A program made the position numbers and the translations under genes. A model generated the notes under the pieces. That model saw only the letters and a program-made list of their open reading frames with translations. It was not told the DNA's origin and ran no database searches. Shown here piece after piece: positions 1,860-43,398 of a stretch of 64,000 bases of DNA (its first letter is position 1; each line of letters opens with the position of its first letter). This DNA comes from Acinetobacter terrestris (lineage in GTDB: Bacteria; Pseudomonadota; Gammaproteobacteria; Pseudomonadales; Moraxellaceae), in assembly GCF_004331155.1 (NCBI RefSeq), contig NZ_SJNZ01000002.1, positions 62,001 to 126,000 on the forward strand. Direction: 5' to 3'.

Positions 1860-2348
1860 TTAGAATTTAACTTCTACACCATAAGTTCCTCGGTAAGTAC
1901 CCGCATATGTTCCGATACCAATGTTACGGGCCTGAGCTCGAACACCATAAGTATGTTCCCGTCCATCCCAAGTAACCGTCGAGCCACTACTGTATGCAGC
2001 CCCACCCCGTCGAGTAGTTTGAACACTTACCGGCACAGAACGAGTACCATTGACCAGTGTTCCAGGAGGTGTAATGGTCAAACTATAATCAGCATTGGTA
2101 CGTACACCAAAGGTTGTGGCGTCTGTATAATTATTTTGTTCTGTAAGTACAAGACTTGAATCTGCAATATCAAGATCACAATGTTTTGGAACTTCTAATA
2201 CAATATCAATTTTGCCTTTACAGTCATGACCGCAAGAAGATTTTCCTGGTTTATGCCCACCTCCACGATCTGCTTCTCCTGCATGCACGCTTGTTACACA
2301 TACACCAAAGGCTAGTGCTGCTAATGCGGCTTGTATTGTTTTATTCAT
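1860..2348 (-). CDS. Fimbrial major subunit (pilin)-like secreted protein
   Basis: 162 residues. The ATG at 2348 follows a strong GGAGAAAG ribosome site, which decides it over the ATG at 2360. A signal peptide ends near SVHA. The mature protein opens with a Gly/His/Cys-rich stretch (GGGHKPGKSSCGHDCKG) and continues as beta-strand-rich sequence (DIVLEVPKHCDLDI, DYSLTITPPGTLVNG) with a C-terminal alternating pattern GTYRGTYGVEVKF, as in pilins that complete each other by strand exchange. Its position before chaperone and usher genes supports the pilin role. The exact pilin family is uncertain; the Cys-rich N-terminus is unusual. Confidence 0.75.
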   Translation of the reverse strand: MNKTIQAALAALAFGVCVTSVHAGEADRGGGHKPGKSSCGHDCKGKIDIVLEVPKHCDLDIADSSLVLTEQNNYTDATTFGVRTNADYSLTITPPGTLVNGTRSVPVSVQTTRRGGAAYSSGSTVTWDGREHTYGVRAQARNIGIGTYAGTYRGTYGVEVKF

Positions 2349-3325
2349 AACTTTCTCCATTTCTTTTTAAAGAATGTAATAAGAATGTTTATATATTTAA
2401 TGTTAACAATTACGTTTGTAACTCTTTTTATTATGAGTAAGGTTTCGTAATCGTTGAGTTATCTTATTACGATTAATATAAAAATTTTAAAAATGTTATT
2501 ATTCACAATATTTTTTTATATTTTAATTTTTCAATACCATTCATAGATAGAATACTATTTTTATTAAGGTTTAAATTACTAAACAATAAGATACAATTTA
2601 AACTTGTTTCCAATTATGTCAAAAAACAACTAAATATTTCTTAAAATAAATTAATAAAAAACTAAATACTTAATTTCTATATTTTTTTTAAATTATGAAG
2701 GTATTACACAAAAACATCATAAGATTACATAAATTACAAAAGAGTAAAATTTATTTCTTATTTTCTAATAAACACGTGATTTATTTTTTAATTTTACGTT
2801 ATTTTTATAACAACCTCTGATTTGAATAATTTTATGCTCACACTCTCATCATTAAAATATTAAACAATTAAAAACATTCAATAAAAATTAAAAATTCACT
2901 TTATAAATCTTATTCAAAATAAAAATCTTGTCATAATTATTCATTATTATGATTGTATTTATATTGCTTCCGATATTCTCTGAATCGTGAGCAATCGTAC
3001 TTACTTTAATTCAGCATGTAATGTTTTAAGAATGATTTTCCTAAGAAATTAAATCGTATATTTATTGAGAAATAAATTATAAAAAAATTAAATGAATATT
3101 TATTTAAATAAAATTTATAATTTAGGATTAAAAAGCGATTAATACTATTATTAAAAAATACATAAGCCAACCCATGTAAAATCCACTTAGCTTAAAAAAA
3201 ATGAGTTAATTCAGACTATTAAATTACACTTATTTCACATACAGAAATTTAATATCAAAAAATCCCAAAGCTATTGTTCAATATAAGCTTATACATAGCA
3301 TAATTATTCTATTAAAAATTCATAT
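2349..3325. other. Very AT-rich non-coding region upstream of the fimbrial operon
   Basis: Nearly 1 kb with long A and T runs and strikingly few G or C compared with the rest of the window. No open frame with a ribosome site was found on either strand. It must contain the promoter for the left-running fimbrial operon; several TATAAT-like boxes occur, so none can be singled out. DNA of this type is typically bound by H-NS-like silencers (inference). Confidence 0.6.
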
Positions 3326-4141
3326 TTATTCTATTCGATTTAATAAGCCTTTTTCTACTTGGTACATTTGTCCATCTCCAAAATCAATCTGTTGTTTATC
3401 ACCCTGTAATTTTGGAAATCCTATAATCCTTTCAAGTTGGGGGGAGCGTTGAAACTGCTGGGTTTTGGGGTTAAACATCCAGTAAATATAACGTTTATCT
3501 TGAATGGTTCGTTCTTCTGAAATATCTGACAACACAATATCGTAATATCCATCAAAATTAACATCCATGTAACCAATACTTTTCGGAAATGCGCTAAATC
3601 CTGACAGCGCCTGTACAACGCTATTGTTATTTTTATTTACAATGTCTACTCGTTTAAGTACCGAACCATAGGGTTGCTGAATATCTTCCAGACCATAAAA
3701 TTTAAAGATAAAATTAGGTTTATCTGTAACTTTTATTGCAGGCTCAAACTGAATGGATTTCCCCAAAGCATCATCACCTTCAGCAAACATCGCCTTCAGA
3801 TCACCGCTATTGGCATTCAGCATCCCCGATAATTGATAAGTCCTGCTTGTTATATTTTCAGGGTCAGCATCAACAGATTTTAAATTCAACTGATCGCCTT
3901 TTTGCAATCCTTTTAAATTGATTATCTGATCTTCAATAAGGTCATATAAAGTAGCATGCGGATTCCAAATCCCAGCATACAGACTAAGAAAATAACGTCC
4001 TTCGGTCGATTTCAACATGCGTTGCATGGAAACTCGAACATTATTGAGTGGCTTGTATTCTGGAGCATTTAAAACGGTTTCAGCCATACTTAGGTTGGAA
4101 AAAGTCAACGCAGCAATACAAAGCAATAATTTAGTTTTCAT
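3326..4141 (-). CDS. Secreted protein of unknown function with Asp-rich Ca2+-type loop
   Basis: 271 residues with a clear signal peptide (residues 1-20, ending LSMA). Near the C-terminus a loop DVNFDGYYD (D193, N195, D197, D201) has the spacing of FG-GAP/dockerin-like calcium loops and resembles proteins annotated as XAC2610-related. The rest is mixed alpha/beta sequence with no enzyme motif I recognise. It is probably periplasmic. It stands alone: a hairpin at 4185-4217 separates it from the upstream ilv operon and the AT-rich region follows it. The real-gene call is secure; function is unknown. Confidence 0.7.
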   Translation of the reverse strand: MKTKLLLCIAALTFSNLSMAETVLNAPEYKPLNNVRVSMQRMLKSTEGRYFLSLYAGIWNPHATLYDLIEDQIINLKGLQKGDQLNLKSVDADPENITSRTYQLSGMLNANSGDLKAMFAEGDDALGKSIQFEPAIKVTDKPNFIFKFYGLEDIQQPYGSVLKRVDIVNKNNNSVVQALSGFSAFPKSIGYMDVNFDGYYDIVLSDISEERTIQDKRYIYWMFNPKTQQFQRSPQLERIIGFPKLQGDKQQIDFGDGQMYQVEKGLLNRIE

Positions 4142-9160: not shown

Positions 9161-11803
<2,643 letters not shown>

Positions 11804-32692: not shown

Positions 32693-32965
32693 TTATTTGT
32701 TTTCAGTTTTACTGGTCTCTTCAGGCTTATCTTCAGCCTGTTTCACACGAATACCATGTCCGTGCAAACGCAGCGTATTTAAGCCTTTAATCGCTTTCAC
32801 AGCTTCACGACCATGGGGCATTTCAACAAAGGCAAAACCTTTCGATTTACCTGTAGTGGCATCCATCACCAACTTGCATGAATCAACTGTGCCAAAGTCT
32901 TGAAATAGCTTCAATAATTCAGCTTCTGTTACTGTACGTTCTAAACTACGAACTAAAATTTTCAT
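32693..32965 (-). CDS. RRM-domain RNA-binding protein
   Basis: 90 residues. One RNA-recognition motif fills residues 1-78: RNP2-like KILVRSLERTV, RNP1 GKSKGFAFVEM, and a final RLHGHGIRVKQAE. An acidic/Lys tail follows. It resembles the small single-RRM proteins of bacteria and cyanobacteria that bind RNA and may act in stress or RNA folding; the target is unknown. Start ATG 32965. It stands alone and has its own terminator. Confidence 0.9.
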   Translation of the reverse strand: MKILVRSLERTVTEAELLKLFQDFGTVDSCKLVMDATTGKSKGFAFVEMPHGREAVKAIKGLNTLRLHGHGIRVKQAEDKPEETSKTENK

Positions 32966-37240: not shown

Positions 37241-37999
37241 TTATTTTTTCCAGCCCAGTTCAATCGCAGTAATTTCATTAATTAATGTCTGTTGTAAAGT
37301 ATCCGGCATCTTACTTTTATCGAGTGAGACCGGAATATGTCCCGCCATCAATTCACATTTGGCTTGAGGAAATAAAGGCTTTTGATTGGGATAGGCATAA
37401 CCAACTGGATACAGCGGTTGTCCGGTTGCCAAGTCGTATTTATCGGTTGCACCGAAAGCATGTAACAGCTCATGTACAAGCACAATTTTGTTTTGTTCAG
37501 CCTGTTTTTTAGATGCAAACAAATTGACCGAACCAATCCGGCCTTTTTGCAAGGCGGTTGAATGCTTTAATTCTTTAGTGTGTGCAGGGTCATAATAATT
37601 TAAAAATAAAGTCACACTAGGCGCGCCCTCTTTTCTTTCATGCTGTTTCCATGCATAAAAACGGAACTTTAAACTCCATAAAATGGTATCCAGCATACTT
37701 GCATGCTCAGGTACTTTAGGTGGAAGTTGTTTGAGTTCTCTCCCCATTTGGAAATACAGAGAAATGGGTTGTCCACGATATTCCGTCGACATCTGTTTCA
37801 GATATTCTTGTGCAGCCCTTAATTCAGATAAGTTAAGAGTCTGAATATAGTTCTGGGTAGCAACCTGCCCATCTGCATTAATGGGATGCAGCATCACAAT
37901 AATGGGTTTGGACCAGTCTTGATTCTGGTCGCGGTAAGCATTGACTGCCACGATGAATAAAATGATGAGTAAACACAGTACCCGAATTTTTTTCCACAT
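37241..37999 (-). CDS. Membrane-anchored metzincin-like zinc metalloprotease candidate
   Basis: 252 residues. An N-terminal signal-anchor (residues 6-20, VLCLLIILFIVAVNA) places the rest outside the inner membrane. HELLHAFGATD at residues 176-186 matches the metzincin zinc motif HExxHxxGxx(H/D): His176, Glu177, His180, Gly183, Asp186. The upstream region contains IGSVNLFASKK and LFLNYYDP. I know of no named family for it. No partner gene is evident; it lies alone between the HdeD-like and NYN genes. The protease call rests on the motif. Confidence 0.65.
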   Translation of the reverse strand: MWKKIRVLCLLIILFIVAVNAYRDQNQDWSKPIIVMLHPINADGQVATQNYIQTLNLSELRAAQEYLKQMSTEYRGQPISLYFQMGRELKQLPPKVPEHASMLDTILWSLKFRFYAWKQHERKEGAPSVTLFLNYYDPAHTKELKHSTALQKGRIGSVNLFASKKQAEQNKIVLVHELLHAFGATDKYDLATGQPLYPVGYAYPNQKPLFPQAKCELMAGHIPVSLDKSKMPDTLQQTLINEITAIELGWKK

Positions 38000-38031: not shown

Positions 38032-39012
38032 CTAAACCATAACTTTATTTATTTTAGTAAATTTCTTCTTATCAATATCCTTAAATTCAAGCCATCCTGA
38101 GTGGATAGATTCAATAGCCTCCTCATAGTTTCTAATATTCAAATCTGTATTCTTTAGATACTCTACGACATCCTGAATATTCACCCAATCATTTTGTTCC
38201 GAATAATGGTAAATAGCTTTTTGTACAAGTCGAATAAATGAACTGAAACTACTTTTTCTTAAATACATTTGGCTACCTTGCATTTTAATTTCGAATACAC
38301 CTAATGCTTTTACCAAACCTGACAACTTATCATGACCATAATTTCGTGTGTCAAAATCAGGTTTGACAGTAGTTATATATGCTCCTACTAAACCAAGATA
38401 TGCCCAACCACTATCATCTGAATTATCTTTAACAGCTTTATATATTAGATTTAAAGTAGCTTTATCTATTTGTTGTTTAACAATATCCTTGTCAATTAAT
38501 TCAATTTTTATGGACTCTTTTACCCCATTATCTTTTTTAATTATTGAATTTTGCTTAATCTCCTCCTTTTCTTCAAACACCAAATTTTCTACCGAAATGA
38601 ATTTATCACATGCTTGTTTGAATGGTTCAGGTGTTGTTTTCCGCCCAAAACCATAAACAATCAAACCATTTTCACGGATTCTTGATGCTAAAGGTGTAAA
38701 ATCACTATCACTTGAAACAATGCAGAATCCATCTAATGCACCTGCATACAATAAATCCATAGCATCAATAATTAAAATCATATCTGTGGCATCTTTGCCT
38801 TTTGTATATGCAAATTGCTGCACAGGTGTAATGGCATGAGGAAGTAAAACGTCTCTCCATTTTTTTAATGTGTCACTACTCCAATCACCATAAACCCTTT
38901 TTACACTTGCAATGCCATATTTAGCAACTTCTTCTAATACAGATGAGATTGCGTTAATAGATGAATTATCCGCGTCAATTAAGACAGCAAACTTTTTCGT
39001 TTGAATTTCCAC
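38032..39012 (-). CDS. NYN-domain ribonuclease-like protein with OST-HTH/LOTUS domain
   Basis: 326 residues. The NYN (PIN-like) nuclease domain occupies about 5-145 with acidic residues in the right order: LIDADN (Asp13, Asp15), KGKDATDMIL (Asp74, Asp77) and SSDSDF (Asp102, Asp104). A Lys/Glu linker leads to an OST-HTH/LOTUS-type segment at about 186-255 (GWAYLGLVGAYITTVKPDFD, then YGHDKLSGLVKALGVFEI), and a C-terminal helical domain (about 258-326). Such proteins are thought to cut or bind RNA. Base composition is lower in G+C than neighbours, hinting at transfer. The role here is unknown. Confidence 0.85.
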   Translation of the reverse strand: MEIQTKKFAVLIDADNSSINAISSVLEEVAKYGIASVKRVYGDWSSDTLKKWRDVLLPHAITPVQQFAYTKGKDATDMILIIDAMDLLYAGALDGFCIVSSDSDFTPLASRIRENGLIVYGFGRKTTPEPFKQACDKFISVENLVFEEKEEIKQNSIIKKDNGVKESIKIELIDKDIVKQQIDKATLNLIYKAVKDNSDDSGWAYLGLVGAYITTVKPDFDTRNYGHDKLSGLVKALGVFEIKMQGSQMYLRKSSFSSFIRLVQKAIYHYSEQNDWVNIQDVVEYLKNTDLNIRNYEEAIESIHSGWLEFKDIDKKKFTKINKVMV

Positions 39013-39062: not shown

Positions 39063-39092
39063 AAAAAATGCCGACTTTCGTCAGCATTTTTT
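39063..39092 (-). terminator. Terminator after topA
   Basis: Stem AATGC-C-GAC / GTC-A-GCATT with one mismatch, flanked by A6 and T6 runs, just past the topA stop. Confidence 0.7.
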
Positions 39093-39105: not shown

Positions 39106-41745
39106 TTAGGCTTCAACCCATTTCCCATCTTGGTAAACCAGGCTCCACTTGGTTTGTTTGCCTTCAGCATTTTCAGAACCAATATACTGCGCCTGGTTCT
39201 TACGGCTGAATTTCACCAATGCTGGATTGCCTTCCGGGTCTACATCGGGAGCTTGCAAAATAAACTGATATTTTGGATCAAGCTGTTCAGCTACAGAACG
39301 TAGTTCAGCGACTTTCGGCGCACGTGTTTCACGAACTTTCGGGAATTTGCTGGCTGCCAGGAATAAGCCGGCTGCACCATCACGAAGAACAAAGAAGTCA
39401 TCATGTTTGGTTGAACGTAAATGTTCCATTCTAATTGGATCGACACGCGGAGGCGCTGGCTGACCACTCTTCAATACTTTACGGGTATTGTCACAGCTGG
39501 TGCAGGCAAAGTACGGTCCAAAACGTCCCGTCTTGAGCTGCATTTCACCATCACATTTGTCACATGGAATGGTTGGTCCATCGTAACCTTTAATTTTGAA
39601 CTCGCCTTCTTCAAGCTCAAAACCGGCACAGTCCGGGTTATTCCCACAGACATGCAATTTACGACCACCATCAATCACATAACTGTCCATTGCCGTTTCA
39701 CAAATCGGGCAACGTTTTTTCGACATTAAATCGGCAGTTTCTGCTGCATCATCATCAGATAAGGCTGCAAGCGACTCAACCGGCGTCAGGTTCAAGGTAC
39801 CCTTACAACGCTCTTTTGGTGGCAAGTTGTAGCCTGAACACCCTAGGAATACGCCCGTTGTACCGGTACGAATCTGCATTGGACGTGAGCATTCAGGGCA
39901 ATGCACCGCTTCAACTTCAACAGGCTGATTACGACGCATGCCGTTTTCACCCTGTGCTGTGGTTAAGCGTTTTTTAAAGTCGCCGTAGAAATTATCCAGT
40001 AATTCCTTCCAGTTACGCTGTCCATCAGCCACTTTATCGAGCTGACCTTCAAGATCGGCAGTAAAAGCGTAATTCATCAGGTTATTGAAGTTTTCATCGA
40101 GACGATCTGTCACGATTTCACCCATCTTCTCAGCATATAGACGACGATTGTCGAGCTTTACATAACCACGATCCTGAATGGTTGAAATAATTGCAGCATA
40201 GGTTGATGGACGACCAATGCCTTTTTTCTCTAATTCTTTCACCAATGATGCTTCGGTAAAACGTGCAGGGGGTTTAGTGAAGTGTTGAGACGGATCAAGC
40301 TTCTCAAGTTTAAGCACTTCACCCACTTTAACAGCAGGTAGCAAAATATCGTCATCTGCTTTGTTTGCAGCGCGAACTTTGGTAAAACCGTCAAAAACTA
40401 AAGTACGACCTTTGGCTTTGAGTTCCACGCCATTGGCATCGACTAAAATGGTTGAAGACAGGTATTCTGCCGATGTCATTTGACAAGCAACAAACTGACG
40501 CCAAATCAGATCATACAAACGCTGTGCATCACGATCGACACCGACTAACTGATCACCTTTTAAAGTCACATTTGAAGGACGAATCGCTTCATGGGCTTCT
40601 TGCGCGCCTGCTTTATTACCATAAAGGTTTGGCTTGACAGGTAAGTACTTTTCACCGAACTCAAGTTCAATGTGATTACGAACCATATTGACTGCATCAT
40701 TACTTAAAAAGGTTGAGTCAGTACGCATATAGGTAATAAAACCTGCTTCATACAGCCGCTGCGCCATCGTCATGGTTTTCTTCACAGAGAAACCTAAACG
40801 TGTACTTGCAGCCTGTTGCAGGGTCGAGGTGATATATGGTGCACTTGGATTAACCTTGGTCGGTTTATCTTCACGCGTGGTAACTTTATATTCAGCAGTA
40901 TTTAAAATTTTTAATAAAGCATCCGTTTGTGCTTTATTTTGCAGTTTTAAGCTTTTACCACCTTGTTTGACTGCTTCTAAACGAATCTCATCGCTTGAAG
41001 ATTTGGTATCTGCAAACACTTGCCAGTATTCTTCAGGAATAAAAGCACGAATCTCACGTTCACGCTCTACCACCAATTTTACCGCAACCGATTGCACACG
41101 ACCTGCCGATAAACCGCGGGCAATCTTTTCCCACAGCAATGGCGAAATCATAAAGCCCACTACGCGGTCCAAGAAACGGCGTGCTTGCTGTGCATTAACC
41201 TTATCAATATCTAAGCGTGAAGGCTGTTTAAAGGCTTCCTGAATTGCATTTTTGGTAATTTCGTTAAAGACTACACGTTGATAACGTGAATCATCTCCAC
41301 CAATCACTTCTTTTAAATGCCAGGCAATGGCTTCCCCTTCACGGTCCATATCCGTTGCGAGGTAGATTTCATCGACTTGTGATGCCAGTTTTTTTAGTTC
41401 AGCAACAACGTGTTCCTTACCCGGAAGCACTTCATAGTGAGCTTCCCAGTCATGTTCAGGGTCAACGCCCATCCGATTAACCAAGGCCGTTTGTGCTTTT
41501 TCAGCTTTTTGCTCATCGGTCAGTTTGACACGTGATACAGGTTTTTTTTCTGTACTTTTAGAACCACCGGTCGGTAAGTCACGCACGTGACCGACGGATG
41601 ATTTCACAATGTAATCTGAACCGAGGTATTTATTGATTGTTTTCGCTTTTGCAGGCGACTCCACAATCACTAAGGCACGCTTTTTCGCAGCACTCGGTGA
41701 TTTTGCTGTGGTGCTTTTGGATGTAGACCGAGGAGCGTTCGCCAT
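39106..41745 (-). CDS. topA: DNA topoisomerase I
   Basis: 879 residues. It relaxes negative supercoils. The N-terminal Toprim domain starts [20 protein letters not shown] and contains [17 protein letters not shown]; the catalytic Tyr339 lies in [11 protein letters not shown]-terminal zinc ribbons carry Cys pairs ([48 protein letters not shown]), followed by a Lys/Arg-rich end. A Ser/Thr/Lys-rich N-terminal extension of about 20 residues precedes the Toprim domain. Start ATG 41745. Confidence 0.97.
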
Positions 41746-42301: not shown

Positions 42302-43300
42302 TTAATTCAAGAACATCTCGTGGCTGTACAGCACTTCAGTGCCATTCCAGTAAATATATCCCTTTTCAATCAATTCTTTAAGCAACAATTTCACATCCGA
42401 TTTCGGGAACATCTGCTCCAGCAAATCACGCAAGGCATAAATATCTTTAGGCTTGTCCGATTTTAATTCGCGCAATTTACGCGCGACAATGACCTGAACC
42501 GGATCAATTTTAGAAAAGTTTTTAAATAAATCTTTTTGCGCATGATGAATGGGATTTGAATGCTGCAGTTCTTCATCTGAGGAAGATTCTGTTTGTAGTT
42601 GAGCAAAAATCGGGGAAATGTTCTGTGCTGTTTCTGAAGGCGTTGCTTGCTCTAAATCAAGTTCCGTCCATTGTTTTAATAGTTTTTTACGGAAATTAAT
42701 TTGCTCATCATAACGTTTCACAATTTTGAGATTAATCAGTAAAGCTATCAGCTGCTGTGCCTGACCTGTTTCAACTTGCAAAATGTTACTCAGCGAGTTT
42801 TTAAGTTTCTCAATCGAGTTCGGTTTGCCCTTCATTTTACTTAAAGCGTCACAATATTTTTTGACCAACAATAACTCTGGTTTTTGCTTAATGGTTTCGA
42901 TACTTGGAATTTTATATTTTGAATTTAATGAAGGTTCTTCTGCCTGAATTTGAATCAGCTTACAGGTCATGTCCGAGGATTGCATCATCTCTAGCAGAAT
43001 TTCACTGCTTGGCATGGCAGAAATGACTTCAATCGTGGTGTCAGTTTCTAACAACGCGATCAGTTGCCCGACGACCACCGCATATTCGAATTCTTTTTGA
43101 TCGACCTCGGCAGTTTCTAAAATAACCACTTGTCCACTACTGACCCAACTTGAAAACTCGGTTAAATCTTCAAGTGAGTATTCAAACTTTCCTTGGCAGT
43201 TAAATAAGTAAATTACAGCGTAGTGTTGAATGATGTCTCGCAGCAATTGTGCGGTAGGCATATTCTTTTCAAGATCAAGAAGAACGACTTTATTGGACAT
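42302..43300 (-). CDS. Protein with possible degenerate PIN-like domain and winged-helix tail
   Basis: 332 residues from ATG 43300 (MSNKVVLLDLEKNMPTAQLL); an earlier in-frame start at 43315 is weaker. Residues 1-120 look like a Rossmann-type PIN-like fold: VVLLDLEKN, then KEFEYAVVVGQLIALLETDT, then IEVISAMPSSEILLEMMQS. In active PIN/NYN proteins the last segment has acidic residues (SKDxGF-like) that are absent here. The rest is helical, with a final segment resembling a winged helix (LLKELIEKGYIYWNGTEVLY). Likely nucleic-acid binding, catalytically inactive; this is inference. It lies between topA-side genes and slyX. Confidence 0.55.
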   Translation of the reverse strand: MSNKVVLLDLEKNMPTAQLLRDIIQHYAVIYLFNCQGKFEYSLEDLTEFSSWVSSGQVVILETAEVDQKEFEYAVVVGQLIALLETDTTIEVISAMPSSEILLEMMQSSDMTCKLIQIQAEEPSLNSKYKIPSIETIKQKPELLLVKKYCDALSKMKGKPNSIEKLKNSLSNILQVETGQAQQLIALLINLKIVKRYDEQINFRKKLLKQWTELDLEQATPSETAQNISPIFAQLQTESSSDEELQHSNPIHHAQKDLFKNFSKIDPVQVIVARKLRELKSDKPKDIYALRDLLEQMFPKSDVKLLLKELIEKGYIYWNGTEVLYSHEMFLN

Positions 43301-43398
43301 AATCTCAATAGACAAGTAAGGGAACTTTGAGCCTGCATTAGAGCGAGCCTGAATGGAAAGGTCAAATCAATTCAGCAAAAAGACCCGTGAAGATTGAC

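Follow-up and report, generated by a model that had tools for sequence, protein, structure and literature searches.

Bacterial proteins in which a nuclease of the LK-nuclease (DUF88/NYN) type is joined to OST-HTH (LOTUS) domains were described as a family by Anantharaman, Zhang and Aravind in 2010 (PMC2848206). According to the accessible part of that paper, almost all bacterial OST-HTH domains are found, single or duplicated, behind an LK nuclease, lack a conserved genomic linkage to other known systems of RNA processing and might be part of enzymes that degrade RNA on their own; the same part argues that the OST-HTH domain is of bacterial origin and that its nuclease-fused version was probably the first to enter Eukaryota, which places the bacterial NYN-OST-HTH proteins close to the origin of MARF1 and of the germ-granule LOTUS proteins. 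The NYN domain of MARF1 is an endoribonuclease stimulated by Mn/Mg, with an active site formed in the human protein by Asp358, Asp426, Asp427 and Asp452 (accessible text of PMC6294520), and G-quadruplex RNA is named as a ligand of LOTUS domains of mammalian, arthropod, plant and bacterial origin in the accessible text of a preprint (PMC12247748) that cites Ding et al. 2020. A further paper retrieved as a report on DUF88 (PMC13159725) concerns, in its accessible part, DUF883 and was set aside. Our literature search, with subscription papers largely outside its range, found no report of an exchange of LOTUS domains, no tested bacterial NYN-LOTUS enzyme of this or a closely related architecture and no function assigned to any bacterial member.

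The gene analysed here, from a 64,000-nt stretch of Acinetobacter terrestris DNA (the window), belongs to this known bacterial architecture; what is new is that it is a mosaic, the RNA-binding tail of which has been exchanged several times between species. The open reading frame agrees in coordinates, strand, start codon and length with the one given in an earlier note made from the sequence alone, and the NYN nuclease and OST-HTH domains recognized there are confirmed by Pfam matches that both exceed the curated cut-offs (OST-HTH: residues 192–247, E 7.1e-14). The NYN family TIGR00288, by comparison, reached only 22.6 bits, with an NCBIfam cut-off of 178.45. The structure prediction that the earlier note had suggested gave a full-length model of moderate quality (pLDDT 69.9, pTM 0.40; below pLDDT 50 in linker residues 146–180), for which Foldseek identified VPA0982, MARF1 NYN and a bacterial LOTUS domain as the best matches: the six chains with E ≤0.001 were VPA0982 (2qip, E 8.7e-08), four chains of MARF1 NYN (5yaa, 6fdl) and 2kpm, and the next one was 2kzv (3.2e-03). 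At the sequence level, too, 2kpm and 2kzv, both solved structures of bacterial OST-HTH domains, match the LOTUS part.

Features of the NYN-LOTUS locus (window coordinates)
Feature	Position	Strand	Remarks
NYN-LOTUS-LOTUS gene	38032..39012	-	326 aa, GTG start, ORF intact
NYN nuclease domain, residues 7–141	38590..38994	-	Pfam E 3.3e-38; Foldseek matches to VPA0982 (2qip) and MARF1 NYN
Exchange-boundary zone, codons 105–145	38578..38700	-	drop in identity to ANC 3781, from that of topA to background, here and on into the linker
Hypervariable linker, codons 146–186	38455..38577	-	low model confidence; dN high in most pairs
LOTUS/OST-HTH domain 1, residues 188–252	38257..38451	-	the window copy is of type A
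Diverged second LOTUS-like winged helix, residues 256–322	38047..38247	-	from hhalign and structure; absent from short forms
topA, conserved left neighbour	39106..41745	-	
Metalloprotease-like gene, conserved right neighbour	37241..37999	-	weak M6 match under cut-off
Hairpin with T tract after topA	39063..39092	-	found by eye

The earlier note had also proposed an extra C-terminal domain. A further domain does exist (residues 255–326), but rather than a domain of a new kind it is most likely a degenerate, diverged second copy of LOTUS. Pfam detects one OST-HTH domain in the window protein and in two other Acinetobacter proteins (L031, L035) and two in L060, L064 and L066, which are relatives from Moraxella and other proteobacteria. 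In hhalign comparisons the Acinetobacter C-terminus matched the second OST-HTH copies of other genera with probability 97.0 (E 1.1e-10) and the first LOTUS domain more weakly (95.1, E 3.1e-08), and the second copies from other genera matched the first LOTUS strongly (97.7, E 2e-12). Modelled alone, the C-terminus forms a good winged helix (pLDDT 84.0, pTM 0.72) with the same order of elements as LOTUS 1 (helix-helix-helix-strand-strand). Foldseek with this domain alone found generic winged helices and no match with E ≤0.001 (2kzv at rank 31, E 0.21; the Oskar LOTUS domain at rank 44), and the VIA-align comparison was not specific for LOTUS (MARF1 LOTUS Z 7.2, TDRD5 Z 7.0, and similar values for many other folds). 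The idea of a novel domain was set aside on the profile comparison, which favours the second LOTUS.

The survey of slots and linkage across Acinetobacter and Moraxella, with filled, empty and alternatively filled slots, identifies the NYN-LOTUS gene as an old but optional element with a fixed place between the metalloprotease-like gene and the gene that we take, from homology, to be topA. Of 175 genomes of the genus, 69 gave a NYN-LOTUS match and 106 gave none; the C-terminus of topA was found in 173. Among 51 NYN places compared with the position of topA, 46 adjoin topA; this count left out seven genomes, five of which a separate locus comparison linked to topA, and at least 51 of the 175 genomes have the gene or its remnant beside topA (only a short fragment in G171 and G186). 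Outside Acinetobacter, the position after topA is shared by the copies of Moraxella lacunata, M. caprae and one Moraxella MAG. Twenty topA slots were hand-picked among the genomes without a match, and a NYN protein match was found in none of them. Six are nearly empty, with 87–101 bp from topA to the next gene (L085, L091, L093, L099–L101); three hold about 340 bp (L082–L084); four carry a NUDIX-like gene in place of NYN (recognized by Pfam in L089 and L095, with 6.5e-19 and 9.3e-17, and by eye in L087 and in L097, where it is broken); and in the last seven either the right neighbour is missing or other stretches of about 176–640 bp fill the slot. One of these slots (L082) comes from a genome, G138, in which the 200-residue C-terminus of topA is identical to that of the window. 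The terminator scan did not flag the hairpin after topA; a similar hairpin was seen by eye in loci whose topA slot is empty or otherwise filled.

These observations bear on the origin of the gene. The lower G+C reported earlier is real (31.8% versus 44.8% in topA, and below the flanks), but as a sign of transfer it fails: the gene is lower in G+C than topA in all 48 Acinetobacter loci compared, and its composition therefore indicates neither recent arrival nor foreign origin. Recent transfer of the whole gene, against which the earlier note thought that universal presence at this locus in Acinetobacter would argue, can be rejected. Presence is in fact patchy, yet the slot, with the same order and orientation of topA and NYN, is shared by many Acinetobacter species and Moraxella. 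The description of the gene as standing alone holds insofar as no constant functional partner was found; its place between topA and the metalloprotease-like gene is nevertheless conserved in the genomes that carry it at this site. Elsewhere in the window, positions 2001–3500, near an ORF for a PapD-like chaperone, are strongly AT-rich (G+C 0.21–0.27); a 90-aa protein (32693–32965, minus strand) resembles by eye a single-RRM RNA-binding protein; and a 337-aa protein (42302–43315, minus strand) has no significant match in Pfam, with a second, diverged copy adjoining it in L056 and further pieces in L116.

The mosaic structure is seen best in the comparison with Acinetobacter sp. ANC 3781 (L047), to which the window is joined in the topA tree (support 100/99). 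In the tree of the NYN gene, where long branches meet (L112, L114), the window is joined instead to ANC 4470, G140 and A. cumulans. The AU test on residues 1–250 and 35 rows, left after 9 of 44 rows had been dropped (Moraxella, long branches, near-duplicates), rejected the grouping of the window with ANC 3781, which was named after seeing the trees (p 1.8e-81). The conflict originates inside the gene: the two genomes are 92.6% identical in topA, 92.9% in codons 1–104, 78.9% in codons 105–145, whence the drop continues into the linker, and 68.7% in LOTUS codons 188–252, and the ANC 3781 copy lacks the second LOTUS. Identity at third codon positions falls as well (from 0.80 to 0.45), which indicates replacement and not fast change of the protein. 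Faster evolution of LOTUS was rejected for the clear cases on this ground, and also because many other pairs keep third positions in LOTUS at 0.94–1.00.

A second example is strain S332-3, named A. lwoffii (L036). Compared with two strains of the same name and four near genomes it is 96–99% identical in topA, 97–99% in codons 1–104 and 73–75% in LOTUS; in LOTUS the closest to it are type A loci (e.g. the window), and its tail equals that of type B. Each species cluster is represented by a single genome in the collections, so that these strains named A. lwoffii do not count there as a single species. In a third example, G137 and G123, with 89.4% identity in topA, show no difference between the start of the linker and the end of the gene, and the near-identical tract runs on into the next gene. 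After removal of 14 duplicates, the 48 loci comprise 13 of type A long, 2 of type A short, 29 of type B short and 4 of type B long, where the LOTUS type was assigned by the nearest reference and long and short mean with and without the second LOTUS. In-frame stops occur in two loci, ANC 4470 (L030, codon 124; a 92% relative, at 10001–10978 of its locus) and G097 (L127, codon 44), which are either pseudogenes or the result of sequencing errors. Taken together, the comparisons show that in several lineages the NYN half stayed with the chromosome and the linker with the LOTUS cassette was swapped between species, and that one exchange was confined to the LOTUS core; they thus support transfer of the LOTUS half.

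It is possible, if on the lesser side of even, that this mosaic is neutral, i.e. that recombination simply happens in or near the low-identity linker and that both LOTUS types bind alike. Acinetobacter is often naturally competent, which fits such a view, and exchange is no more than occasional: from 16 disjoint pairs of loci, picked on topA identity alone (≥0.85), 12 revealed neither replacement of the whole gene nor a step of ≥0.2 (steps ≤0.149), and one (L114/L116) is a whole-gene replacement. The remaining three pairs, all of type A versus type B, are stepped, and the position of their breaks, together with the comparisons that follow, speaks against neutrality. The break falls between codons 143 and 149 in three of three (L036/L127, step 0.309 at codon 149; window/L047, 0.318 at codon 143; L030/L058, 0.245 at codon 144); the NYN half lies only 1.1, 2.9 and 4.0 points below topA in L036/L127, window/L047 and L030/L058, and the remainder of the gene is 24–32 points lower. 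The member of the first pair with an inner stop (L127) is not decisive, as the same step appears when L036 is compared with L041, L042, L131 and L132, all free of inner stops. In the same pairs the steps in topA (16 pairs), the metalloprotease-like gene (16) and a glycerate-kinase-like gene (10) never exceed 0.171. Wider scans, run on pairs chosen after the step was seen, found the NYN-LOTUS step to be the largest of 44 genes between the window and G018 (break at codon 143), and the largest of 119 genes (of 118 in reverse) between G098 and G009, named A. lwoffii (break at codon 151). On a quick topA tree, the weak forks of which may inflate both counts, no fewer than 10 changes of LOTUS type are required (43 loci counted, five left out) and no fewer than 11 between the long and the short form (48 loci). 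None of these points proves selection.

Selection on the protein itself is evident. In same-type pairs NYN and LOTUS 1 are under strong purifying selection, LOTUS 2 under less and the linker under the least: dN/dS for NYN, LOTUS 1 and LOTUS 2 is 0.021, 0.018 and 0.089 between the window and ANC 4470, and 0.008, 0.009 and 0.030 between L032 and L123. The constraint on LOTUS 1 also counts in favour of neutral exchange. Together with the long-standing association with topA in both Acinetobacter and Moraxella, the strong purifying selection agrees with another explanation, which we likewise regard as possible but short of even: the protein could be an RNase that regulates RNAs of the cell itself (turnover of mRNA, or control of antisense or structured RNAs) with MARF1-like chemistry, the exchange being ordinary homologous recombination. 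Antisense RNAs often control plasmid copy number, and in some plasmids relatives are the next annotated gene after the replication genes (repA/repABC in L167, L169 and L174, from plasmids of Klebsiella, Enterobacter and Rhizobium). This explanation must contend with the fact that the gene is dispensable, as indicated by the lack of a match in 106 of the 175 genomes, G138 among them.

Relatives of the protein are also found on mobile elements. They occur on 373 of 72,556 plasmid records (368 of the 373 below 60% identity), and on 8 of 50,697 phage records and 7 viral contigs; the DNA of the locus itself has no match on plasmids. In one viral contig (L185, 4983–5780) the relative lies near genes for a head maturation protease and a major head protein. 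Cargo of mobile elements is present in the neighbourhoods of 18 annotated plasmid regions, hand-picked from the 373 with an incomplete plasmid gene table: toxin-antitoxin genes lie within the 5–6 kb shown in six of them and replication or partition genes in eight. Two of the relatives (L176, L182, on plasmids of Piscinibacter and Sphingomonas) are near a gene annotated as "DNA phosphorothioation-associated putative methyltransferase", and one plasmid copy is near a methylase-helicase cluster. A second, unlinked Acinetobacter copy (L121, 4129–4920) adjoins genes for a YqaJ-like recombinase and a DUF932 protein, which suggests that it resides on a mobile element. The survey for defence islands, proposed in the earlier note, found no partner that is constant in the 18 plasmid regions, and a defence-island partner was rejected on this basis.

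That the protein is an anti-phage or anti-plasmid RNase, in which LOTUS would recognize the RNA of the invader and NYN would destroy it, with cassette exchange as an arms race, appears unlikely to us. The patchy presence in 69 of the 175 genomes, the slots beside topA that are occupied, empty or alternatively filled, the exchange of LOTUS cassettes, and the relatives on plasmids, beside phage head genes and, in three of the 18 plasmid regions, near the phosphorothioation-associated gene or the methylase-helicase cluster, are all in keeping with defence. PADLOC-DB 2.0.0 (2023), however, contains no system that fits (only a weak match to PglZ, E 0.0027, 14 bits), the window copy lies among topA and ordinary chromosomal genes and not in a recognizable defence island, and the lack of conserved neighbourhoods with known RNA-processing systems stated in the accessible part of PMC2848206 points the same way. 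Moreover, phages and plasmids carry relatives too, so the protein may equally serve them.

The acidic site of NYN noticed earlier is conserved: all 48 Acinetobacter loci have Asp13, Asp77, Asp102 and Asp104, while Asp74 and Asp83 occur in 46 each and Asp86 in 47; loss of acidic residues in homologs, which the earlier note would have counted against nuclease activity, was not seen for the first four. Judged from their order and motif, the aspartates of the window protein probably correspond to the active site of MARF1. The notion that NYN is inactive and the protein merely binds RNA or DNA draws on the nearest folds of the second domain, which are generic winged helices, many of them DNA-binding, but the invariance of the four aspartates makes it very improbable.

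We therefore consider it rather probable that the gene encodes a single-chain, metal-dependent endoribonuclease, in which the choice of RNA is set by an exchangeable LOTUS cassette. The gene itself is an optional accessory one. In the proposed mechanism one polypeptide would act alone: the aspartate cluster of NYN, to judge from its fold and conserved residues, would cut RNA in a metal-dependent manner, and the LOTUS domain, with its weaker second copy, would bind and so choose it. As an accessory gene it occupies the slot between topA and the metalloprotease-like gene, where recombination between species has in several lineages swapped the linker and LOTUS cassette (type A or B, in the long or the short form); such a swap would likely change the RNA target and leave the chemistry the same. 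The natural chimaeras, with near-identical nucleases and different LOTUS cassettes, offer a ready-made test of whether LOTUS sets the choice of RNA.

Compared with the LK-nuclease + OST-HTH family as presented in the accessible part of PMC2848206, the window gene has in common an NYN-type nuclease at the N-terminus with OST-HTH behind it in one or two copies, the standalone gene and the sporadic distribution. It differs in that its probable second OST-HTH has degenerated and does not occur in the short forms, that the Moraxellaceae form has a fixed topA neighbourhood, and that the exchange of the C-terminal cassette seen here is not described in that part of the paper. MARF1 (Limkain b1) likewise joins a NYN endoribonuclease to LOTUS (accessible text of PMC6294520), an activity that is predicted for the window NYN; MARF1 however has RRM domains and many LOTUS repeats, whereas Pfam finds no RRM and one LOTUS stretch in the window protein. 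VPA0982 of Vibrio parahaemolyticus (2qip) is a solved relative of the NYN part, and NE0665 and CV_0373 (2kpm, 2kzv) are solved relatives of the LOTUS part, but each consists of one domain, and their entries are titled as uncharacterized or of unknown function.

In the HsdS subunit of type I restriction systems a constant catalytic part is combined with a recombining DNA-recognition part. The likeness to the window gene lies in this way of working, and no homology is claimed; HsdS systems target DNA, have several subunits and perform a known restriction. By analogy, the LOTUS cassette might be a swappable module of RNA specificity, of which populations would maintain at least two types behind one constant NYN and trade them by recombination, so that bacteria would have an RNA-targeting enzyme that can be switched, for use against foreign or selfish RNAs, a proposal that we regard as quite doubtful. 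Should the exchange prove to be under selection, it would represent, for RNA, what recombining specificity is in restriction systems.
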